Source: Asanoa ishikariensis
GTDB lineage: Bacteria; Actinomycetota; Actinomycetes; Mycobacteriales; Micromonosporaceae
DNA: 64,000 nt
Direction of reading: 5' to 3'
Assembly: GCF_900107455.1 (NCBI RefSeq)
Contig: NZ_FNQB01000001.1
Location: 1,302,001-1,366,000 of the forward strand
Shown piece by piece: positions 3,605-46,044 of the stretch. Numbering within the stretch: position 1 is the stretch's first letter; each line of letters opens with the position of its first letter. Below the pieces are notes generated by a model that was not told the DNA's origin, searched no databases, and saw only the letters and a program-made list of their open reading frames with translations. The translations under genes were made by a program, and so were the position numbers.

Positions 3605-4603
3605 TCAGTTGGTCGGCGTCGGCACCGCCGTGGCGGTCGGGGTGGCGGTCGGCGCCGGTGTGCTGGTCGGCCCTGGCGTCTCGACCGGTACTTCCGAAAG
3701 CGGCAGCTCTGTCCGCTGCGGCTCCTCGGTCGGTGCCAGCCCGGGGCGCGGCGCGACCACGTACGGCTGCTGGTTCGGGCAGTACGGGTACGCGGGAGCG
3801 CCGGCCTGAGCCTGGTAGAACGCCTCCTGGCAGCGGTACGGGTCGCCGAGCTGGATCGGGTTGCCGCCCTGGTCGTACAGGCTCACGTCGGTCAGCGGGT
3901 TGCCGTTCGAGTCGTAGACGTAGACGTCCTGGATGTACTCGTACGGGTTACCCGACACGCTCTGGGGCTCGTTCCAGCCGCCGCCGTACTGGTCGGCCTT
4001 GTCGAAGACGACCATGCCGAAGAGCACGAGCGCCACCCCGCCGATGGCGAGGCCGGTGCGCGGCACGGACGCCAGCGTGGGCTCGCGCCGACCGAGCCAG
4101 ATGGACGCGACCAGGCAGACCGCGAGCAGGAGCGCGGCCGCCAGCGTGCTGCCACCGAGCCTGGGCAGCAGGCCCGCCTCGTTGCCGTCCGAGGTCAGCC
4201 AGGTGATCGCCATCGCCGCCAGATAGCCGCGCAGCACCCACCAGCCCGGCGCCAGCATGCGCAGGAACTCGCTGGCCCGCCCGTAGCCGAGCAGCGGACC
4301 GGTCCTGCGGTCGGCGGCACCGACCACGCCGCGGGCCCGGCGCAGCACGGCCGAGACCCGGTCGTCCAGGCCGCGGGCGGCGGGTGTGGTCGCGACGTCG
4401 AGCCCGGCGGCCATCCGAAGCTCGGCCGCGTACGCCTCGGGCGGCCCGAGCCGTTCGGTCAGCGTGGCGTCGCCCTCGGCGGCGACCTCCGCGAAGTGCT
4501 CCGGGAGGTCCTCCAGCAACTCGTCGCGGACCGCGGGGTCGAGATCGGCCAACGCCCGCCGCACCGCCTCGAGATAGGCCTCCTGCTCCGTCGCGACATT
4601 CAT
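3605..4603 (-). CDS. HAAS/permease-prefix domain membrane protein
   Basis: A 332-residue membrane protein. The first 75 residues (pattern YLEAVRRALxDL...ELLEDLPEHFxE, then LGPPEAYAAELR) match the HAAS-type helical domain that is usually encoded next to PadR regulators. Three to four membrane segments follow (about residues 115-205), then an extracytoplasmic Tyr/Gln-rich part and a Pro/Thr-rich C-terminus ending in PTPTN. Its ATG overlaps the padR stop by 4 bp, so the two are co-transcribed. PadR/HAAS pairs commonly form signalling modules in Gram-positive bacteria. The output of this one is unknown. Confidence 0.85.
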   Translation of the reverse strand: MNVATEQEAYLEAVRRALADLDPAVRDELLEDLPEHFAEVAAEGDATLTERLGPPEAYAAELRMAAGLDVATTPAARGLDDRVSAVLRRARGVVGAADRRTGPLLGYGRASEFLRMLAPGWWVLRGYLAAMAITWLTSDGNEAGLLPRLGGSTLAAALLLAVCLVASIWLGRREPTLASVPRTGLAIGGVALVLFGMVVFDKADQYGGGWNEPQSVSGNPYEYIQDVYVYDSNGNPLTDVSLYDQGGNPIQLGDPYRCQEAFYQAQAGAPAYPYCPNQQPYVVAPRPGLAPTEEPQRTELPLSEVPVETPGPTSTPAPTATPTATAVPTPTN

Positions 4604-6197: not shown

Positions 6198-6959
6198 CTA
6201 TCGCCGGATGTAGCTCAGCAGGCGGAGGATCTGCCAGTAGAGGTAGATCAGGCCGACGAGCATGCCGAACGCGCAGTACCAGGCGTAGCGGCGCGGCAGG
6301 CCGTAGCGGACGCCCTGCTCGACGGCGTTGAAGTCGAGGATGAAGGTGAGCGCGCCGACGCCGATGCAGACGATCGCGAACACGTACGGCACCCAGCCGA
6401 CCTCGCCGGTCCGGGTGTAGACCTCCAGGCCCTGCCGGCCGCTGACCCAGAACACGATCAGGTTGGCGAAGCCGAGCACCACCACCCCGATCAGCGCGCC
6501 GATCACGAAGCGGGTGAACCGGGGTGTGGCGCGGATGATCTTGGCCCGGTAGAGCAGGCCCATGCCGAGGAAGACGCCGAGCGTGCCGACCACCGCCTGG
6601 ATCACGATCCCCGGGTAGAGCTCCTCGAAGCCCCGGCTGGCCACGCCGAGCAGCACGCCCTGGAGGATCGCGTACAGGCTGATGACCAGCGGGTTGGTGA
6701 TCCGCCGGAAGCTGATCACCAGCACGAGCGCGAGGCTGGCGATCGAGCCGCCGATGAGGCCGAAGCGCAGCGCCGGGCCGCTCTCGATGGTGAACCAGGA
6801 GACCGCGGCGACCGCCGTGGTCAGCAGGAGCAGCGCGACCGTGCGGATGACCACGTCGTCGACGGTCATCGCGCCGGTGGCCGAAGCCTGGCCGAGCACC
6901 TGGCGCTCGGTGCGGGCGGTGTCGTCGAGGTGGGTCAGGACCGGGTTCGAACTTTGCAT
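6198..6959 (-). CDS. Bax inhibitor-1/YccA family membrane protein (copy 1)
   Basis: A 253-residue integral membrane protein with about seven hydrophobic helices, of the Bax inhibitor-1-like family (calcium leak or stress-related channels; the bacterial role is unclear). The N-terminal QSSNPVLTHL is nearly the same as the KTSNPVLAGL of its neighbour, and both contain DDVVIxTVALL and FxLGxVIxxxVRxGLPxRYxW-like segments, so this is a tandem duplication. It lacks the neighbour's Gly/Pro/Ala-rich insert near residue 25. It lies about 90 bp downstream of copy 2, separated by a strong hairpin terminator, so it is partly independent. Confidence 0.9.
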   Translation of the reverse strand: MQSSNPVLTHLDDTARTERQVLGQASATGAMTVDDVVIRTVALLLLTTAVAAVSWFTIESGPALRFGLIGGSIASLALVLVISFRRITNPLVISLYAILQGVLLGVASRGFEELYPGIVIQAVVGTLGVFLGMGLLYRAKIIRATPRFTRFVIGALIGVVVLGFANLIVFWVSGRQGLEVYTRTGEVGWVPYVFAIVCIGVGALTFILDFNAVEQGVRYGLPRRYAWYCAFGMLVGLIYLYWQILRLLSYIRR

Positions 6960-7050: not shown

Positions 7051-7851
7051 TCAGTCGTCGCCTTGCAGGAAGCTGAGCAGGCGCAGCACCTCGAGGTAGA
7101 GCCAGATCAGGCTGACCAGGATGCCGAACGCGGCGACCCACGAGTAACGCTCGGGCAGGCCCATCCGGACGCCCTCTTCGACCTCGTGGAAGCTGAGCAC
7201 GAAGCTCAGCGACGCGATCACGATGCAAACCAGGCTGAAGCCGATGCCGAGCGCGCCGTTGTCGCGCAGGCCGGTGTTGAAGCCGAACAGCGACAGCAGC
7301 AGGTTGATCATGATCACCGCGAAGACGCCGGCCAGCGCCGCCACCATGAACTTGATGAACCGCGGCGTCGCCCGGATGACCTTGGCCTTGTAGAGCATCG
7401 CCATCAGGAAGAAGACGCCGAAGGTGGCGACCACGGCCTGGAGCACGATGCCCCGGTAGCCGGCGATGTTCTCGTAGAACTCGCTGATCAGACCGACGAA
7501 GACGCCCTCGATCACGGCGTACGTGATGATCAGTGCCGGGTGGGCCATCCGCATGAACGAGATGACCAGGCCCAGGCCCAGGCCGCCGATCAGGGAGACG
7601 ATCAGGGCCGGGAAGACCATCGAGTCAGGGATCGCGTTCCACGCGACCGTGGCCGAGACGCCCACGAGTGCGAGGAGCGCGACAGTCTTGATGACGACGT
7701 CGTCGATCGACATCGGTCGTACCGCGGGCGGTGCGGCCGGATAGGCTCCCGCGCCCGCCGGGTATGGCTGGGCGTAGCCCGGCTGGCCGGCTGCGCGTTC
7801 GCGCTCGGCCGCCTGGCCCAGCCCCGCCAGCACCGGGTTGGACGTCTTCAC
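7051..7851 (-). CDS. Bax inhibitor-1/YccA family membrane protein (copy 2)
   Basis: A 266-residue seven-helix membrane protein paralogous to the gene at 6198-6959. It has an extra N-terminal linker rich in Gly, Tyr, Pro and Ala (about residues 18-45) before the membrane domain. Two GTG codons lie two codons apart. GGAGG ends only 1 nt before the first (7857) but 7 nt before the second (7851), and the second gives a product aligned with the paralogue's N-terminus, so 7851 is chosen. The C-terminal helices end in LEVLRLLSFLQGDD. The gene is divergent from the sigma factor gene. Confidence 0.9.
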   Translation of the reverse strand: MKTSNPVLAGLGQAAERERAAGQPGYAQPYPAGAGAYPAAPPAVRPMSIDDVVIKTVALLALVGVSATVAWNAIPDSMVFPALIVSLIGGLGLGLVISFMRMAHPALIITYAVIEGVFVGLISEFYENIAGYRGIVLQAVVATFGVFFLMAMLYKAKVIRATPRFIKFMVAALAGVFAVIMINLLLSLFGFNTGLRDNGALGIGFSLVCIVIASLSFVLSFHEVEEGVRMGLPERYSWVAAFGILVSLIWLYLEVLRLLSFLQGDD

Positions 7852-37927: not shown

Positions 37928-38176
37928 ATGCGGACTGTCGTCGACGTGCTCGCCGTCAACAACTTCGGTGACACCCGCGAGGGCGGGCTGGCCGGCCCGA
38001 TGGGGCTGCTGCTCATCATTCTGCTGGGCACCGCGACGGTTCTGTTGATCCGCAACATGAACAGCCGCCTCAAGCGGCTGCCCGAGCGGTTCCCCGGACC
38101 GGATGACAATGTCGTGGATCCGACCACCACGAAATCTGTCGCGGCGAAACCATCTGACCCGATTGACCGTTCCTGA
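37928..38176 (+). CDS. small membrane protein downstream of mca
   Basis: An 82-residue protein with one membrane segment (about residues 22-42; GPMGLLLIILLGTATVLLIRNMN), then a basic Pro-rich tail. ATG 37928 is chosen because AAGGAG lies 10 nt upstream but only 1 nt before the alternative GTG at 37919. It is likely co-transcribed with mca. Small membrane proteins at this position are common in actinobacteria; no function is known. Confidence 0.78.
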   Translation: MRTVVDVLAVNNFGDTREGGLAGPMGLLLIILLGTATVLLIRNMNSRLKRLPERFPGPDDNVVDPTTTKSVAAKPSDPIDRS

Positions 38177-38435
38177 CTACCACTGGATTCGTTCCAGACT
38201 GGGCAATCCGGTGCTGACCAGGCACGACGGCACCCATTGACGGCCAAACCAGACGTCTGACCCCTGTTGCGCCCACTCGGATTGGCTTAGCCTTCCGCCG
38301 TGGGGACCCGTGTGGGTTTCCGTGGCGTGCGCGGAAGGGGGCGCCGATGACGATCGCCGGCCGCTCCCGGCATGATCTGTCCTTTGCCGATCATTGCCCC
38401 GCTCCCGTCAACCGTCCCGTGGGCGGGAGCAGGCG

Positions 38436-40961
38436 ATGAGCGCGCTGCGTGCCGGCATCGACCGCGTCGCCCGGGGCTCCGGCGCGGCGGAGGTACCCGT
38501 CCGCGCGCACGCCTTCACCGGCCTGCTCGTGGTGCTCGCGGTCGTCGCGACGATCAGTGGGCTGCTCTGGCCGGCGTTCCTCCGGGAAGGCGACTCGCTG
38601 CCGCCGGCCGCCCGGTTCGGCATCGCCTGCGGCGTGATGGCGCTGGCGCAACTCGCGAGCCTCCGACTACGCATCGGCTCCGGGCGACTATCCGTCACCT
38701 GGGGCGAGGCCGCGCTGATCATCGGCCTCTACGTCGCACCGTCCGGCTGGCTGCCGGCCGCCACCTTCGCCGGCACGTTCGCCGCCTGGCTACTCATGTC
38801 GGTCTTCGCGAAGCTCCGCACGCCGCTCGAGGTCCTGTTCATCGCGGCCAGCCAGACCGTCGCGGTCGCCGGCGCCGTCACGGTCGCCTGCCTGCTCGCC
38901 GACCCGATCGGCGCCCGGCTCACCCCGCCGCTGGCCGCGGCCCTGATCCTGGGCGCGCTCACGTACCTGCTGGTCGGCGCACTGCTCGCGGTGCTCTTCC
39001 TGCGCCTCGTCCACGGCGTCCCGGTGTTCGCGACCCTGGTCCGCGCGCTCAACGACAAGCTGCTGATGTTCATCGGCAACGTCGTCGTCGGCCTCGCCGT
39101 GGTCGCCATGGTCCACTCCGACCCGGCCTGGCTGTTCCTGCTCCCGCCCGCGCTCTGGCTGCTCCAGCAGACCTACGGGCAGCGCCTGCGGGCCGCCGAC
39201 GAGCGCCGCGCCTGGGAAGAGTTCGCGGGTGCGACCAGCGCCCTCAAGAAGCTCGACGAAGACGAGGTGGCCACGGCCGGCGTCGCCGGTGCGCTGCGCC
39301 TCCTGGTCGCCGAGCGGGTCGACCTCGACGTGGTCCGCATGGACGGCGGCTGGCGGCGCCACCACGGCGACGCCGACGGCGGCAGCGGCACCATGGACGT
39401 CGACGAGCGCCCGGCCACCGAGGGCGACGACTCCACGCTCGTCCGCGAGCTCACCGTCCGCGGCCAACTCGTCGGCCAGATCCGGGTCGCGCTGCCGAGG
39501 CCCACCCTGCCGTCCGCCCGCGACGAGTTCGCCCTGCGGTCCTTCGGCGACACCCTCGCGGTCGCCCTGCACGACGCCGTCACCCACCGGGCGTGGTCGC
39601 TGCTCCAGGAACGCTCGTCGTACGACGCGGTGCACGACGCACCGACCGGCCTGCTCAATCGGGCCGCCGTGGTCGCACAGGGCGACGCGGCCCTGCGCAA
39701 GCTCGGCCGCGACCACCCGATCGCGATGCTGGTCGTCGACATCAACCGCTTCCGCGCCGTCAACGACACCCTCGGCCACGCCGCCGGCGACGAGCTCCTC
39801 GCCGCCACCGCGACCCGCATGAACACCCTGACCGGCCCCGGCGAACTACTCGGCCGACTCGGCGGTGACCAGTTCGCGCTGCTGATCGCCGGACCCGAGC
39901 GGATGACCACCTCCCGCGCGCTGGACCGGGCCGACGAGATGGTCGACGCCGTCGCCGAGACCACCGAGGTGCAGGGCATCGCCCTGGCGGTCGAGGCATC
40001 CGCCGGCGTCGTCGTCGCGGCTGCCGGTGGTGCCAACATGGGCGAGTTGCTTCGCCGCGCCGACATCGCGCTCCGGCAGGCGAAGGAGGGTGGGGGCGGC
40101 AACACCGCCTGCTACGACCCGAGCCGCGACGAGAGCAGCACCGACCAGTTGACCCTGCTGTCCGAGCTCCGCGAGGCACTCGAGGCCGAAGACCAGCTCG
40201 TGCTGGCGCTGCAGCCGGCGGTCGACCTGACCACGGGCGCCCCGACCGGCGTCGAGGCCCTGATCCGCTGGCGCCACCCCCGCCGAGGCATCCTCAAGCC
40301 CGGCGACTTCGTCCGCGCGGCCGAGGACAGCGACCTGCTCGGAGCCTTCACGCTGTACGTGATCGACCGTGCCCTGCGCGTCGCCGCCGACGTGGCCGCG
40401 CACAACATGGACGTCCCGATCGCCGTCAACCTCTCGGCACACAACCTGCTCGACCAGCACCTCCCGAACGCCGTCGCCGAACTGCTCCGCAAGCACGCCG
40501 TCGGTCCCGAGCGCCTGGTCTTCGAGATCACCGAGACGGTCGTGATGAGCGACCAGGAGGTCATCGACGAGGTCCTGGCGGCCCTGCGCGCCATGGGCAT
40601 CCGGATCGCCCTCGACGACTTCGGCACGGGCTACTCGTCGCTGGCCTTCCTCGAACGCGTACCGGTCGACGAGGTCAAAGTGGACCGCTCCTTCGTGATG
40701 CGCATGGCCGAGTCCCCCCAGGCCGCCGCGATCGTCCGCTTCACCATCAACCTCGGCCAGGAGTTGGGTCTCCGCGTCGTGGCCGAAGGTGTCGAAACGG
40801 CTGCCCAACGCGCGGCCCTCGAGAACCTCGGCTGTGCGGCCGCCCAGGGTTACCACTTCTTCAAGCCGATGCCCGCTGACAAGATCGTCGCCGTTTTAAG
40901 TCAGCTCACCGATTCGGCTCGCGCCAAAGTCTTTCCGCTTCGCGCCGATGGGTCGGCCTGA
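38436..40961 (+). CDS. membrane GGDEF/EAL protein, probable c-di-GMP phosphodiesterase
   Basis: An 841-residue protein. About eight membrane helices form an N-terminal sensor (residues 20-240). A GAF-like linker with little conservation follows (about 255-385). The GGDEF domain (about 400-555) has GGDQF near 475 in place of GGDEF, so cyclase activity is doubtful. The EAL domain (about 585-835) keeps VEALIRW, NLSAHNL, EITETVV, LDDFGTGYSSL, VKVDRSF and VAEGVET, all catalytic and metal residues, and should hydrolyse c-di-GMP. The C-terminal residues RAKVFPLRADGSA lie inside repeat A. The ATG at 38436 has GGAG upstream. The 259-bp region before it shows no riboswitch I can recognise. Confidence 0.93.
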   Translation: MSALRAGIDRVARGSGAAEVPVRAHAFTGLLVVLAVVATISGLLWPAFLREGDSLPPAARFGIACGVMALAQLASLRLRIGSGRLSVTWGEAALIIGLYVAPSGWLPAATFAGTFAAWLLMSVFAKLRTPLEVLFIAASQTVAVAGAVTVACLLADPIGARLTPPLAAALILGALTYLLVGALLAVLFLRLVHGVPVFATLVRALNDKLLMFIGNVVVGLAVVAMVHSDPAWLFLLPPALWLLQQTYGQRLRAADERRAWEEFAGATSALKKLDEDEVATAGVAGALRLLVAERVDLDVVRMDGGWRRHHGDADGGSGTMDVDERPATEGDDSTLVRELTVRGQLVGQIRVALPRPTLPSARDEFALRSFGDTLAVALHDAVTHRAWSLLQERSSYDAVHDAPTGLLNRAAVVAQGDAALRKLGRDHPIAMLVVDINRFRAVNDTLGHAAGDELLAATATRMNTLTGPGELLGRLGGDQFALLIAGPERMTTSRALDRADEMVDAVAETTEVQGIALAVEASAGVVVAAAGGANMGELLRRADIALRQAKEGGGGNTACYDPSRDESSTDQLTLLSELREALEAEDQLVLALQPAVDLTTGAPTGVEALIRWRHPRRGILKPGDFVRAAEDSDLLGAFTLYVIDRALRVAADVAAHNMDVPIAVNLSAHNLLDQHLPNAVAELLRKHAVGPERLVFEITETVVMSDQEVIDEVLAALRAMGIRIALDDFGTGYSSLAFLERVPVDEVKVDRSFVMRMAESPQAAAIVRFTINLGQELGLRVVAEGVETAAQRAALENLGCAAAQGYHFFKPMPADKIVAVLSQLTDSARAKVFPLRADGSA

Positions 40962-41220
40962 GTCCCACGACCGGTAGCGGCTCGTTTCATCGGATGTCGC
41001 TGCGTCGTTGGTCGCGCTCTAGGGCGGGGGAGGATGTTGTGCGTGCCGACAGGCCGCATAGACCGCGACCTCTATAGTCGGCACCCACAACATCCTCCCC
41101 CGCCCTGACCTAGTTCAGCCTTGGTCGACTCCGATTCCCGGTCGCGGGCCACAGTCCATTGGTTGGTCTCCGCTGCGCGATTCGTGGGGGGCTCAGGCCG
41201 CGGGGTTGCTGGCGGTTGCC
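40929..41220 (+). repeat. repeat copy A (direct), carries 82-bp palindrome
   Basis: A segment of about 290 bp that shares clear similarity with 42560-42824 (inverted, copy B) and 41645-41820 (direct, copy C). It begins within the last 11 codons of the GGDEF/EAL gene. Shared landmarks are TCCCACGACCGG, CGGATGTCGCTGCGTCG and GGTCGACTCCGATTCC. The palindrome core is listed separately. Confidence 0.8.
41023..41104. repeat. 82-bp palindrome core in copy A
   Basis: 28-nt arms (41023-41050 and 41077-41104), one mismatch between them, around a 26-nt centre. The arm begins GGCGGGGGAGGATGTTG. The same element occurs inverted at 42684-42765 with only three base differences over 82 bp. It can form a very stable hairpin or cruciform on either strand. 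Confidence 0.92.
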
Positions 41221-41267
41221 GGCACGGGCGATGCCGTCTTGTGGTCGTCGGTGCACACAATGTTTGT

Positions 41268-41678
41268 GTGCGGGTGGTGGCCAAGGGCGCGTCTGGCGAG
41301 TGGGACGCTTGGCGGGTTGGGCGGCGGCGGCTTGCTTGGCGACCCGTCTACATGGGATGGAACCTCAACGATTCCGTCGACATGACCGGGATCCTGCTCG
41401 CCCTGAACCTCCTCCCGTTCGTCTTCTGGCTGCTCAACTGGTTAGCGGCGCTACTGACGACTGTTTTCGTCTGGCCTTGGCGAGCCGTGAGCGGCCGTTG
41501 GCTCGTGGTCGCCTACACGACGACCGGCAACGAACCCGACCGTCGCGCCCACGTGCGCGGTCGCGCGCCGGCCGACGCTTTGGCTCGGGAGTGGGCAAAG
41601 GAGATCATCGGTCGTCCCGTTTGTGGTCTGGCGGCTCGTGCCGCGGTCTCTCCGCTTCACGCCGATGGGCCCGCTTGA
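41268..41678 (+). CDS. small hypothetical membrane protein inside the repeat island
   Basis: A 136-residue protein beginning VRVVAKGASGEWDAWRVGRRR, with a hydrophobic stretch spanning two helices (about residues 40-75; LALNLLPFVFWLLNWLAALL and WPWRAVSGRWLVVAYTT). A soluble segment and the tail RAAVSPLHADGPA follow. The tail matches the end of the upstream GGDEF/EAL protein because both genes end in copies of the same repeat. GTG 41268 is the most plausible start, though the frame is open from 41121. The function is unknown. Confidence 0.6.
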   Translation: MRVVAKGASGEWDAWRVGRRRLAWRPVYMGWNLNDSVDMTGILLALNLLPFVFWLLNWLAALLTTVFVWPWRAVSGRWLVVAYTTTGNEPDRRAHVRGRAPADALAREWAKEIIGRPVCGLAARAAVSPLHADGPA

Positions 41679-41820
41679 GACCACGACCGCTCGCTCTTCG
41701 CCTCGCCGGATGTCGCTCCGTCGCAGCCCGCCCTAACCCAGCCCAGCGCTGGTCAACTCCGCCGCCCGGCCGTGGATCGGCTGATCTCCGTCGCGCGACA
41801 TGCGCACGGTTGCGGTCCCG
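41645..41820 (+). repeat. repeat copy C (direct), lacks the palindrome
   Basis: It aligns with copy A from the tail of the coding region (TCCGCTTCACGCCGATGGG) through CCACGACCG and CGGATGTCGCTCCGTCG. It then jumps to CCCGCCCTAACCCAGC, the right flank of the palindrome, so the roughly 80-bp core is absent. Similarity continues to about 41820 (ATCTCCGTCGCGCGA). Confidence 0.7.
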
Positions 41821-41946
41821 GGCACGCGCAGGCTTGCCAGCGAGCCCGATTGCGAGTCGAACTGGTCGACTTTCTCGGGCGCAGCTCGCCGGTGAGGTCG
41901 ATTACGAGTCGGTTCAGTTGGCTTTCCTCAGTAGGAGGGCGCTGCC

Positions 41947-41952
41947 TAGGCT
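41947..41952 (+). promoter_or_regulatory. -10 box TAGGCT, leaderless start of the coaD-like gene
   Basis: TAGGCT ends 6 nt before the GTG at 41959. There is no Shine-Dalgarno sequence. Confidence 0.45.
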
Positions 41953-41958
41953 GGCTCG

Positions 41959-42396
41959 GTGACACGTGCGTCTGGTAGCGGTCTCGGCCTGACTCGGGCG
42001 GTCTATCCCGGGACGTTCGACCCCTTCACGCCGGGCCACTTCGACGTAGTCGACCGGTCGCGTCGCATGTTCGGCCACCTCACCGTCCTGGTGGCAGTCA
42101 ACGACGACAAACGCCCGTCTCAGACAACTGCTGCACGGGCGAAGGCGATCCAGCGCTCGCTCCCAGCAAACTGGGCAGACGTCTCGGTCGCCACCTGGCA
42201 TGGGTTAGTCGTGAACTATTGCCGACGCCATGGATGCGATGTGATTGTCCGCGGAGTCAGAGACTCGACCGACTACCAACGCGAGTACGAACTCGCCGCA
42301 ATGAACGAAGCCCTAGGCGTGCCGACGTTGTTCCTGCCCACCCGACCAGAGCTAGCAACGATGTCATCCACCGCAGTACGAACCCTACGAACCTGA
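41959..42396 (+). CDS. CoaD-like pantetheine-phosphate adenylyltransferase, short
   Basis: A 145-residue nucleotidyltransferase with the CoaD signatures: AVYPGTFDPFTPGHFDVV (T/HxGH ATP site, H27), NDDKRPS (Lys), VIVRGVRDSTDYQREYELA (Arg) and LFLPTRPELATMSSTAV (SSS-like loop). It ends about 20-25 residues before the normal CoaD terminus, so the last helix that supports hexamer packing is missing. It sits alone between inverted palindromic repeats rather than beside rsmD/rpmF as housekeeping coaD usually does. Its codon use is somewhat less GC3-rich than flanking genes. It is probably a paralogue or relocated copy; CoA synthesis by it is uncertain. Confidence 0.78.
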   Translation: MTRASGSGLGLTRAVYPGTFDPFTPGHFDVVDRSRRMFGHLTVLVAVNDDKRPSQTTAARAKAIQRSLPANWADVSVATWHGLVVNYCRRHGCDVIVRGVRDSTDYQREYELAAMNEALGVPTLFLPTRPELATMSSTAVRTLRT

Positions 42397-42559
42397 CCGC
42401 TCACCTCGACCACGCACGACCGGTGCCCCAGGACAACTGCGTGCCGCAGGCCGAATCCCCGGCCACACCATGTCGATCAGGTCCGACGGCGGTCAGGCAC
42501 AGTGGAAGCCCCGACCCACCGACGGGACATTGTGGGTGGCAGGGGGCGGGGCGCGATGT
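42397..42559. other. non-coding stretch after the coaD-like gene
   Basis: No gene, RNA or clear repeat recognised here. Weak resemblance to the region beyond the end of copy A (CACCCACAATG-like) suggests the repeat may once have extended this far. Confidence 0.4.
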
Positions 42560-42824
42560 CCTCTCGCAATGCCGCCGCCTACCCCGCAACCTCGACCCCC
42601 GCGGCAGTCGCGAAGCGAAGGCCGGCCGATGGACTGTGTCCCGCGGCCCGGAATCGGAGTCGACCGACGCTGAGCTGAGTCGGGGCGGGGGAGGATGTTG
42701 TGGGTGCCGACTATAGAGGTCGCGGGTTATGCGGCCTGTCGGCACGCGCAACATCCTCCCCCGCCAAGACCGCGACCAGCGACGCAGCGACATCCGAACG
42801 ACGGACGGGGACCGGTCGTGGGAC
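42560..42824 (-). repeat. repeat copy B (inverted), carries 82-bp palindrome
   Basis: The reverse complement aligns with copy A over about 260 bp, including TCCCACGACCGG (at 42813-42824), CGGATGTCGCTGCGTCG, GGTCGACTCCGATTCC and ACAGTCCAT. Copies A and B therefore form inverted repeats around the small membrane protein and CoaD-like genes. Confidence 0.8.
42684..42765. repeat. 82-bp palindrome core in copy B
   Basis: 28-nt arms (42684-42711, 42738-42765), two mismatches, 26-nt centre. It is the inverted equivalent of 41023-41104, with three differences over the full length. Confidence 0.92.
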
Positions 42825-42871
42825 GGCGCGCGCTGAGAGCGACAGCCCCAAGGGTGTGACAGGCTGGAACA

Positions 42872-44869
42872 GTGAACCGGCTAGGTGATGCCACCTCCCC
42901 ATACCTGCTCCAACACGCTGACAACCCGGTCGACTGGTGGCCCTGGGGGAGTGCGGCGTTCGAGGAGGCTCGGCGTCGGGACGTGCCGGTGTTGATCTCT
43001 GTGGGGTATGCCGCTTGTCACTGGTGTCATGTGATGGCGCACGAGTCTTTTGAAGATGCCGGTGTGGCCAAGTTGATGAATGACAGCTTTGTCAGCGTCA
43101 AGGTCGACCGGGAGGAGCGGCCCGACGTCGATGCGGTCTACATGACTGCTACCCAGGCTATGACTGGCCAGGGTGGGTGGCCGATGACGGTGTTCGCGGC
43201 CCCTGATGGGACTCCGTTCTTCTGCGGCACCTATTTTCCCAAGGCCAACTTCTCTCGACTGTTGGAGTCGGTGACGAAGGCCTGGCACGAGCAGCGCGAC
43301 GAGGTTCTTCGGCAGGGTGCCGCGGTGGTCGAGGCTATCGGCGGGGCACAGGCGCTCGGCGGGATCAGCGCGCCGTTGACCGCTGAGGTGTTGGACGGTG
43401 CGGCCGCCAAGTTGGCGAGCGAGTACGACGGTGAGAACGGCGGCTTTGGGGGCGCGCCCAAGTTTCCGCCACAGATGAACCTGCTCTTCCTGTTGCGGCA
43501 CTTCCAGCGGACCGGCAATGCGCGGTCGTTGGAGGTGGTGCGGCACACGTCTGAGGCGATGGCTCGCGGCGGGATCTACGACCAGCTCGCCGGTGGGTTC
43601 GCTCGCTACTCGGTGGACGCTCGGTGGATCGTGCCGCATTTCGAGAAGATGTTGTACGACAACGGGTTGCTGCTGCGCGTCTACACGCACCTGTGGCGGT
43701 TGACCGGGGATCCGTTGGCACGCCGGGTCGCTGACGAGACGGCGCAGTTCATCATGCGCGACCTGGGTACGCCCGAAGGTGGCTTCGCTTCGTCGCTCGA
43801 CGCCGACACCGACGGGGTGGAGGGGCTCACGTACGCGTGGACGCCTGGCCAGTTGGTTGATGCCCTTGGGGACGACGACGGGGCGTACGCCGCGGGGATC
43901 TTCGGGGTGACCGCGGCCGGCACGTTCGAGAAGGGTGCCAGCGTGCTGCGGCTGGCCCGGGACATCGACGACGCGAATCCGCCTGTCGCGGACCGGTGGG
44001 CGGAGGTCAGGCGGCGGTTGTTGGCCGCTCGTGACCAGCGGCCCCAGCCGGCCCGTGACGACAAGGTGGTCGCCTCCTGGAACGGGATGGCGATCGTGGG
44101 TCTGGTCGAGCACTACTTCGCCACCGGTGGCGCGGAGTCGCTGGACGCCGCGGTGCGGGCCGCGACGCTGTTGGCCGAACGGCACGTGGTGGACGGCCGG
44201 CTGCGTCGGGTGTCTCGCGATGGCGTGGTGGGTGATCCGCCCGGGGTGCTCGACGACTACGGGGCTGTCGCGGAGGCGTTCTGCGCCGTGCATCAGGCGA
44301 CGCTCGACGGGAAGTGGTTGGAGTTGGCCGGTGGGCTGTTGGACGCCGCGCTGGCGCACTTCCCGACCGGCAACGGTGGCTACTACGACACCGCCGACGA
44401 CGCCGAGCGGTTGGTTACCCGGCCCGCGGACCCGACCGACAACGCCACCCCGTCTGGGCTCTCGGCGCTGGCGGCCGCGTTGGTCAGTTACACGGCTTTA
44501 AGTGGTGAGACGCGCTATCGGGAGGCGGCCGAGGCGGCGCTGGGGACTGTGGCGCCCATCGTTTCGAAGTATCCGCGGTTCAGCGGGTATGCGGCTGCTA
44601 CCGGGGAGGCGTTGCTTTCCGGGCCGTACGAGATCGTGATCGCCACTCGCGACGATCCGACCGGTGATCCGCTGGTGGCGACCGCTTACGAGTTGGCCCC
44701 GCCGGGGGCCGTGGTGCTGGTCGGTGCTCCGGACGCGCCTGGCGTACCCCTGCTGGCTGATCGTCCGTTGGTCGATGGCGCGCCTACGGCGTACGTCTGC
44801 CGCGGCTTTGTCTGTGACCGCCCGACGACGGCGGTGGCGGACCTCACCGCGCAGCTCGCGCGGCGATAG
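42872..44869 (+). CDS. DUF255 thioredoxin-like / N-acylglucosamine epimerase-fold protein (YyaL type)
   Basis: A 665-residue protein. The N-terminal DUF255 thioredoxin-fold domain (about residues 1-160) opens with [25 protein letters not shown] and has the redox motif CHWC (C49, C52) in [16 protein letters not shown]. The remainder is an (alpha/alpha)6-barrel like N-acylglucosamine 2-epimerases ([26 protein letters not shown]). The family is widespread (SPATA20 in animals) and of unknown function. The start is GTG, with a CAGGCT box 6 nt upstream. It begins 48 bp after repeat copy B. Confidence 0.93.
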
Positions 44870-44877
44870 GGCCGGGA

Positions 44878-44883
44878 TAGGCT
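44878..44883 (+). promoter_or_regulatory. -10 box TAGGCT before purK
   Basis: TAGGCT ends 9 nt before the purK ATG; the transcript would have a leader of at most a few bases. Confidence 0.4.
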
Positions 44884-44892
44884 TCGCGCGCC

Positions 44893-46044
44893 ATGGATTC
44901 GCGTACCGGACTGCCTATCGTCGGCATGGTGGGTGGTGGCCAGTTGGCCCGGATGACCCACCAGGCCGCCATCGCCCTCGGCCAGTCGCTGCGGGTGCTC
45001 GCCGCCCATCCTGACGACGGTGCCGCGCTGGTCGCCGCCGACGTGCGGATCGGCGAGCACACCGACCTGGCCGCGTTGCGTACCTTCGCCAAGGGCTGTG
45101 ACGTGGTCACCTTCGACCACGAGCACGTGCCGGAGGCGCACATCCGCGCGCTGGCCGCCGACGGCGTCAAGGTCTTCCCGTCTGCCGACGCGCTGGTGTT
45201 CGCGCAGGACAAGCGCCGGATGCGGGAGCGGCTGTCGGAGTTGGGTGCGCCCGTGCCGCGTTGGCAGCCGATCGCCTCGCCCGCCGACCTGGCCGCGTTC
45301 GGTGAGCGGGCCGGCTGGCCGCTGGTGCTCAAGGCGTCCCGGGGCGGCTACGACGGGCGTGGCGTGTGGGTCGTCGACTCGCCGGAGGCGGCCGCCGAGG
45401 TGCTGGCAAGTGGCACGGAGCTGATCGCCGAGGAGCTGGTGCCGCTGCGCCGTGAGCTGGCGGTGCAGGTGGCCCGGTCGCCGTTCGGACAGGTCGCGGC
45501 CTACCCGGTGGTGGAGACGGTGCAGCGCGACGGGATCAACGTCGAGGTGCTCGCGCCGGCGCCGCTGCTGCCGGAGGACCTCGCCGTCGAGGCGCAGAAG
45601 CTGGCGATCGACCTGGCGACCGCGCTGGATGTGGTCGGGCTGCTCGCGGTGGAGCTGTTCGAGACATCCGGCGGGCTGGTCGTCAACGAGCTCGCGATGC
45701 GGCCGCACAACTCGGGGCACTGGACGATCGAGGGTGCGCGGACGTCGCAGTTCGAGCAGCACCTGCGTGCGGTGCTCGACTATCCGCTCGGCGACACCGC
45801 ACTGGCCGCGCCGGTCGTGGTGTCCGCGAACGTGCTCGGCGGGCCGGCCGGCGGGATGTCGATCGACGAGCGGATGCACCACCTGTTCGCGGAGGACCCC
45901 GGCGCCCGGGTGCATCTCTACGGCAAGCAGACCCGTCCGGGCCGCAAGATCGGCCACGTGACGGTCCTCGGCGACGACCTGGCGTCGTTGCGTGCCCGCG
46001 CTGCCCGCGCGGCCTGGTGGCTACGCGAAGGGACCCACGAGTGA
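44893..46044 (+). CDS. purK: 5-(carboxyamino)imidazole ribonucleotide synthase PurK
   Basis: A 383-residue ATP-grasp enzyme that carboxylates AIR with ATP and bicarbonate to N5-CAIR. It begins [18 protein letters not shown], followed by [37 protein letters not shown] (nucleotide loop) and [19 protein letters not shown] (metal and substrate residues). Length is normal. It is translationally coupled to purE by a 4-bp GTGA overlap. Confidence 0.96.

Follow-up and report, generated by a model that had tools for sequence, protein, structure and literature searches.

Two inverted copies of a genus-restricted hairpin repeat in Asanoa ishikariensis and their possible role as 3'-end elements

Several kinds of intergenic repeats with internal symmetry have been described in bacteria. 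According to PMC2229807, NEMIS/Correia, ERIC and RUP are small, non-autonomous, intergenic elements with long stem-loops, some of them proposed to affect neighbouring mRNAs, and the YPAL / RU-2 sequences of Yersinia carry internal inverted repeats, are not A+T-rich, lie next to dyads and may affect upstream transcripts. In PMC3733652, REPs measure 20-40 bp, form stems of 5-13 bp, carry a GTAG or CGTC tag and lie mostly between convergent or unidirectional genes. PMC5381666 deals with bidirectional intrinsic terminators, the stem of which shows compensatory changes and is more constrained when common to convergent genes. Here, a hairpin-bearing repeat was analyzed in a window of 64,000 nucleotides (nt) from Asanoa ishikariensis (contig NZ_FNQB01000001.1, positions 1,302,001 to 1,366,000), in which two inverted copies, A and B, enclose two genes (Table 1). 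The host genome, 9.09 Mb in 11 contigs, is referred to as G000 among the six Asanoa genomes G000 to G005, of which G003 is A. hainanensis. The non-coding interspersed repeat to which A and B belong measures about 255 nt, is restricted to the genus and has six copies in this genome, these two included. With moderate confidence, it is considered to be non-autonomous, with an internal palindrome, and to be kept as a structured 3'-end element at the RNA level. The known long-hairpin intergenic repeats thereby gain an actinobacterial family; the titles and abstract openings searched contained no report of repeats in Asanoa.

Compared by its description in PMC2229807, YPAL appeared to be the closest in kind. 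Both elements are intergenic and not A+T-rich, carry internal inverted repeats, and show empty and filled sites between related species; YPAL targets lie at or beside dyad symmetry, and the Asanoa element lies behind the hairpins of rpoC and rplA. Differently, the Asanoa element belongs to another phylum, measures about 255 nt against about 168 for YPAL, and occurs in 2 to 8 copies per genome; its hairpin is conserved in place and no clean target duplication was seen. Small size, non-autonomy, intergenic position and long stem-loops are shared with NEMIS/Correia, ERIC and RUP, most of which are described as A+T-rich, with terminal inverted repeats, TA ends and target duplications, whereas the repeat of the Asanoa element is internal and its G+C content is 61-72%. 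Compensatory stem changes, the feature given for bidirectional intrinsic terminators, were found in the Asanoa element too, but A and B are without a T-run, the tail is conserved in sequence and the family is dispersed; a hairpin of similar apical loop in another genus, g17 (see below), is followed by TTTT. The initial annotation had also thought of a REP/RAYT-like element. Asanoa copies are indeed palindromic and extragenic, and lie behind genes and between convergent genes as the cited text says of REPs. However, the stem has about 30 positions instead of 5-13 bp, the element about 255 nt instead of 20-40, there are 2 to 8 copies per genome, and no GTAG or CGTC tag was seen at the foot of the hairpin. 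A REP moved by RAYT is thus extremely unlikely on stem length, element length and 5' tag, the RAYT gene itself not having been searched for.

Copies A and B share 83.1% identity over 255 nt in pairwise BLAST, and their inverted-repeat arms (41023-41194 and 42594-42765) are 86% complementary. The palindrome of copy A consists of arms of 30 nt, 97% complementary, with 26 nt in between, and the 82-bp cores of the two copies (41023-41104 and 42684-42765) differ at three positions, alignment columns 33, 55 and 56. The inverted copies, the palindrome in each and the three differences were therefore as the initial annotation had described them. Copy A begins at 40962, immediately 3' of the stop codon of the upstream EAL gene, and the stretch 40929-40961 of the copy as first reported proved to be the 3' end of that gene. 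The core matched five further places in the genome, B included, at E values of 1.6e-34 to 6.8e-11, so the likeness of A and B is not due to chance. A covariance model (R1) of 165 positions was built from 22 copies, and copy A scored 182.4 bits with it at 41008-41172. The model found 6 copies in this genome and 32 in 6/6 Asanoa genomes (6, 6, 5, 8, 2 and 5 in G000 to G005).

The spread of the family was restricted in taxonomy. When 41 genomes were searched with the core, matches were obtained in all 6 Asanoa genomes and in 0/35 others. A scan of GTDB contigs with the element pattern gave 15 matches, 14 of them in Asanoa hainanensis, A. iriomotensis or A. siamensis; the 15th, from Streptomyces (L049), had no such hairpin in the stretch read and was taken as chance. 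Among 150 genomes of the same family, the covariance model matched 12, namely the 6 Asanoa genomes and 6 of genus g17. A pattern for the g17-like apical loop, with at most one mismatch, matched 6/200 genomes, the same six among 11 g17 genomes listed. This pattern failed on the Asanoa copies, where the loop is similar (GGYCGCAAAGAGCGCG and variants) and its continuation different. Since the arms and tails of g17 are also unlike those of Asanoa outside the apical loop, the kinship rests on model scores and the loop. In g17 (L093-L098), inverted pairs of hairpins with the similar apical loop and TTTT were seen, one hairpin immediately following each gene of a convergent pair, at one locus in five genomes and at another locus in G090. 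Two extra motif matches (L120, L121) lay in low-complexity or coding-looking sequence in which the long hairpin is absent. No match to the element was found in the phages or plasmids searched.

The element is asymmetric, with a 5' flank, an internal hairpin with arms of about 30 bp (model positions 14-98) and a tail with the motif CACAGTCC. Full copies, about 255-260 nt long, began some 53 nt ahead of the model start and ended some 209 nt beyond it, and the copies at rpoC, rplA and CRP were without the first ~50 nt. Structure was evaluated on an alignment of 31 copies, from which the second copy of G001 (below the score cut) was omitted; antisense matches of the same places entered none of the counts. 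The tail motif was present in 30/31 aligned copies, G+C was 0.61-0.72, and at least two loop types were found. In this alignment, which was fitted to the structure and hence leans towards it, 95.4% of all model-structure cells paired, two-sided changes occurred in at least one copy for 23 pairs, including 18 of the 27 main-stem pairs, and the covariation score was 0.305, compared with 0.135 in shuffles (0/500 reached 0.305) and at most 0.077 with slid partners. A plain MAFFT alignment of 22 copies gave two-sided changes in 15/44 pairs. The ends of the element behaved differently from its center. A 13-nt complement joins the 5' end to the tail, but the conserved sequence extends past the complement, the two sides showed no co-variation, and own pairings (mean -25.5 kcal/mol) were no stronger than cross pairings (mean -25.9 kcal/mol) among the 31 copies. 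Terminal inverted repeats of the kind expected for a miniature inverted-repeat transposable element (MITE) were thus not found in this pairing test, and of the MITE-like mobilised repeat in the initial annotation, a probably non-autonomous, multi-copy palindromic element is what stood. A closing helix CCGTCCCACGACCGG / CCGGGTCGTGGGAC was rejected as its own pairs were no better than mixed pairs, and a short open reading frame (ORF) noticed by eye in the hairpin of copy A was dismissed, its start codon not being kept in other copies on visual inspection.

Conserved loop and tail sequences with a covarying stem would also be expected if each copy were a small RNA gene in its own right, read from a separate promoter. 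This is quite improbable: no sigma-70-like site was found near A or B (other promoter types were outside the search), the rpoC, rplA and CRP copies are without the 5' part, and Rfam gave 0 matches at the gathering threshold in window 38000-46000, the 10 matches listed at E up to 1 being mostly microRNA long-hairpin models far below their thresholds. The antisense strand also scored with the covariance model, and the fold is nearly strand-symmetric, as would suit a DNA-level site such as a cruciform or a protein-binding palindrome for chromosome organisation. The conserved loop and tail are nevertheless asymmetric, copies tend to follow genes, and 2 to 8 copies per genome are few, which makes such a site very improbable.

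The position of copies relative to genes was determined at 17 sites, the second copy of each tandem behind EAL (G001, G002) being omitted as the same locus, and the element-free spacers of the same loci were taken as background. Twelve sites lay behind a same-strand gene (background 0.418, p 0.016), seven of the 17 between convergent genes (0.165, p 0.014) and 0/17 between divergent genes (0.329, p 0.0011), p-values which rest on gene calls made by codon usage with a simple caller and on classification of sites by hand. The element recurred behind the EAL gene, rpoC, rplA, valS, a CRP-like gene and a GntR-like regulator; a further recurrent site is the spacer that separates a malic-enzyme-like gene from dapF. 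Except for EAL (Pfam), these genes were named from reading of the sequences. Copies at EAL, GntR, LacI, LuxR-like and CRP genes started within about 20 nt of stop codons, and at rpoC and rplA the element adjoined the hairpins of these genes, a dyad symmetry. As REPs show a similar placement bias, placement by itself does not tell whether the repeat is a mobile one or a working 3' element.

Sites empty of the element in relatives, which the initial annotation had asked for, were found at four loci. At acylT, the element is absent from G000, where the convergent genes abut, and G003 has about 1,030 bp more. The CRP-nth spacer without the element is 22-32 nt in G000, G002 and G005 and 367 nt in G003, and rpoC is without it in G002, G004 and G005. 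Behind LacI, G000 has no full copy and an unrelated sequence; further on at this locus, an inverted 5' piece of about 80 nt is cleanly absent from G000. The malic-dapF copy was found in 5/6 genomes and the EAL copy in 4/6, and gains are not always distinguishable from losses. CCTAG(G) flanks the complex ~1,030-bp acylT insert on both sides, but no target duplication could be fixed because the inserts exceed the element and carry other repeats. Similar copies at scattered places, together with the element-free sites, suggest mobility, with no event observed.

Several other repeats were seen in these spacers. A common stretch with GTCCGGACCGTNGCTCCCGCC lies upstream of the element (to about -130) beside several copies (L105, L104, L107), so these spacers look like mosaics of repeats. 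A second palindromic family of about 200 bp with long arms was noticed behind rplA in G003 (L115, ~4060-4286) and near C2:1083818 in G000, with at least 7 other places in G000 and at least 16 in G002. The CRP-nth spacer of G004 (L088, ~6270-6734) contains a G+C-rich tandem array of ~74-nt units downstream of the element, and the acylT insert of G003 (L114, query 1680-2290) a tandem array in which the 3' end of the acylT gene itself is among the repeated sequences.

To compare copies in place, G000 and G003 were aligned at five common sites (EAL, rpoC, malic, GntR and murA). Substitutions amounted to 27/425 in the hairpin, 60/331 in the tail, 102/359 in the 5' flank (a window that extends past the element) and 97/243 in the next 50 nt outside, the last figure being rough owing to gap-rich flanks. 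Among 159 hairpin pairs, 150 were unchanged, 6 had changed on both sides and still paired, 1 had become G-U, and 2, both at the EAL site, were unpaired in one copy. In this way, the loop was held, the arms of the stem drifted mostly in pairs and the flanks changed freely. Selection on the core, one possibility raised in the initial annotation, is supported by the difference between orthologous hairpins and the sequence outside, and it acts on copies in place. In trees, the median end branch was 0.022 for hairpins and 0.19 for flanks. The hairpins of A and B were sisters (98/90) while their flanks were ungrouped, those of B going weakly (84/62) with the GntR copy, which looks like an exchange by arm-copying repair or conversion.

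These patterns were weighed against a plain non-autonomous mobile repeat without host function, whose palindrome would be a transposition signal and whose pairing would be kept by template-switch repair of imperfect palindromes or by gene conversion among the copies. The element-free sites, the sister hairpins of A and B with ungrouped flanks, and the excess of paired two-sided (6) over paired one-sided (1) changes at orthologous sites would all be expected from such a repeat. On the other hand, the apical part was as conserved as the stem (6/134 substitutions). At the malic site, the hairpin was identical in the two species (0/85, with 13/64 in the tail). None of the other aligned sites carries this hairpin variant, and conversion between copies therefore does not account for the identity. 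A plain mobile repeat is accordingly regarded as possible but doubtful. With orthologous copies comparable, it becomes testable whether repeats of this kind, as has long been asked, are junk or serve as 3'-end elements.

For the favored 3'-end element, transcription, function as RNA and the route of spread were inferred as follows. Copies may have reached spacers behind genes by some copying or transposition route, and some would then have been maintained over the time scale of species by selection on the fold. In a transcript that enters from the upstream gene, the repeat would fold into a long stable hairpin with a conserved apical loop and leave a specific, conserved tail. It may terminate or insulate transcription, or protect the transcript, often between convergent genes. 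The identity of the stem appears fairly free and its pairing not, which has the look of a 3' RNA element facing a protein or the polymerase.

Several observations weigh against this. One-sided departures in the central stem showed no clear preference for sense-strand G-U over A-C, therefore the fold could matter as DNA, and a role in DNA instead of RNA is possible. No T-run terminator was found at A or B, the single terminator match in 40800-43000 lying off both elements (1.3 expected), and no sigma-70-like promoter was found within 40800-43000, a search that did not cover other promoter types. The hairpin has been lost at some sites (the decayed rplA copy of G000, rpoC in G001 where the tail alone is left, and the third copy at 41632-41810), and the CRP copy of G004 has a deletion in the 5' arm. 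A separate hairpin precedes the element at rpoC and rplA in every genome read, so termination at these two genes does not depend on the element. The excess of two-sided over one-sided changes also fits repair or conversion copying one arm from the other. Five of the 17 sites, B included, are not behind a same-strand gene, and the 17 sites are not fully independent since a spacer is common to A and B, to two sites in G002 and to two in G005.

The arrangement of two genes between A and B had raised the thought of a composite or MITE-ended cassette, with A and B as the ends of a unit carrying both genes. Tail-inward inverted pairs did recur in G002 (L109, 6101-6263 plus strand and 7455-7617 minus strand) and G005 (L091, 5897-6058 plus strand and 7162-7321 minus strand), so genes or spacers are enclosed in the same way elsewhere, but the enclosed content differs. 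However, the CoaD-like paralogue of the enclosed type was present in 6/6 Asanoa genomes and lay at the EAL locus in just two of them, G000 and G003, with no covariance-model match near its other four places. Moreover, the gene enclosed at the LacI locus of G003 occurs in G000 without either repeat, and 22/32 copies are neither paired nor tandem. The EAL spacer of G001 and G002 holds other genes (TetR/SDR-like by sequence reading) together with the element in tandem copies. In G003, a 5' piece is what is left of B and further DNA lies inside, and no element was found at the EAL locus in G004 and G005 with the covariance model. Given this variable content and the CoaD-like gene elsewhere, the spacer marked by A and B is a variable one, and the two copies do not seem to move the genes. 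Their enclosure of two genes is best explained as the local history of one spacer, and a mobile cassette is decidedly unlikely. The recurrence of tail-inward inverted pairs in G002 and G005 nevertheless goes without an explanation.

As side observations on these loci, the pairs at L109 (6101-7617) and L091 (5897-7321) are 1.1-1.2 kb apart, with a VOC-like gene inside in G005 and no called gene in G002. The gene content of the EAL-DUF255 spacer (window 40962-42871; orthologous L106, L108 and L113) varied between the species read. Two CoaD-family matches were found in each of the six Asanoa genomes; in G000 they are window 41959-42396, the more variable type, and G000:C4:1038569-1038964.

Table 1. 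Features of the window around copies A and B
Feature	Position	Strand	Basis
GGDEF-EAL gene, 3' end adjoins copy A	38436..40961	+	Pfam EAL 7.2e-71, GGDEF 2e-35
Copy A, full-length element	40962..41215	+	BLAST A vs B, -46..+207 around model start 41008
82-bp palindromic hairpin, copy A	41023..41104	+	inverted repeat, 97% complementary; stem covariation
Enclosed ORF, small putative membrane protein (185 aa), start codon uncertain	41121..41678	+	related ORF in G003
Conserved tail motif CACAGTCCATTGG, copy A	41150..41162	+	sequence; CACAGTCC in 30/31 aligned copies
Duplicate of last ~15 EAL codons, now C-terminus of 185-aa ORF	41632..41678	+	direct repeat; local alignment
Third copy, decayed, without hairpin and CACAGTCC motif	41679..41810	+	direct repeat; local alignment to G003 copy
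Enclosed CoaD-like paralogue (CTP_transf_like)	41959..42396	+	PF01467 5.3e-15
Copy B, full-length element, inverted	42572..42824	-	BLAST; covariance model R1 167.4 bits at 42616-42779 minus
82-bp palindromic hairpin, copy B	42684..42765	-	inverted repeat; three differences from copy A
DUF255/Thioredox_DsbH gene beyond copy B	42872..44869	+	PF03190 5.6e-71

Both enclosed genes reported earlier were present; the 185-aa ORF had no Pfam match at E 0.1. The lack of a transposase at the locus was likewise borne out, no transposase family being among the Pfam matches of the two enclosed ORFs and two flanking genes; no search for an autonomous element was made.

The end of the EAL gene was found at more than one place. 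The stretch 40929-40961 matched the start of the third, hairpinless copy at ~41632-41810, and in G003 the acylT and EAL copies were 93% identical along 283 nt; the final 33 nt of the EAL coding sequence are part of this match, and additional matching pieces lie upstream. On this sequence evidence, the repeat copies at G003 acylT and at window 41632-41810 seem to have carried the end of the EAL gene along. Such carriage, at acylT and in the 185-aa ORF, would be explained by copying via the upstream transcript, and fits the idea of a ready-made 3' end that spreads behind stop codons, sometimes drags the end of its previous host gene with it and is kept as an intergenic insulator; this idea is considered unlikely. 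The relative of the 185-aa ORF in G003 has a different end, and the ORF of the window offers an example of an interspersed repeat rewriting the end of a neighbouring ORF.

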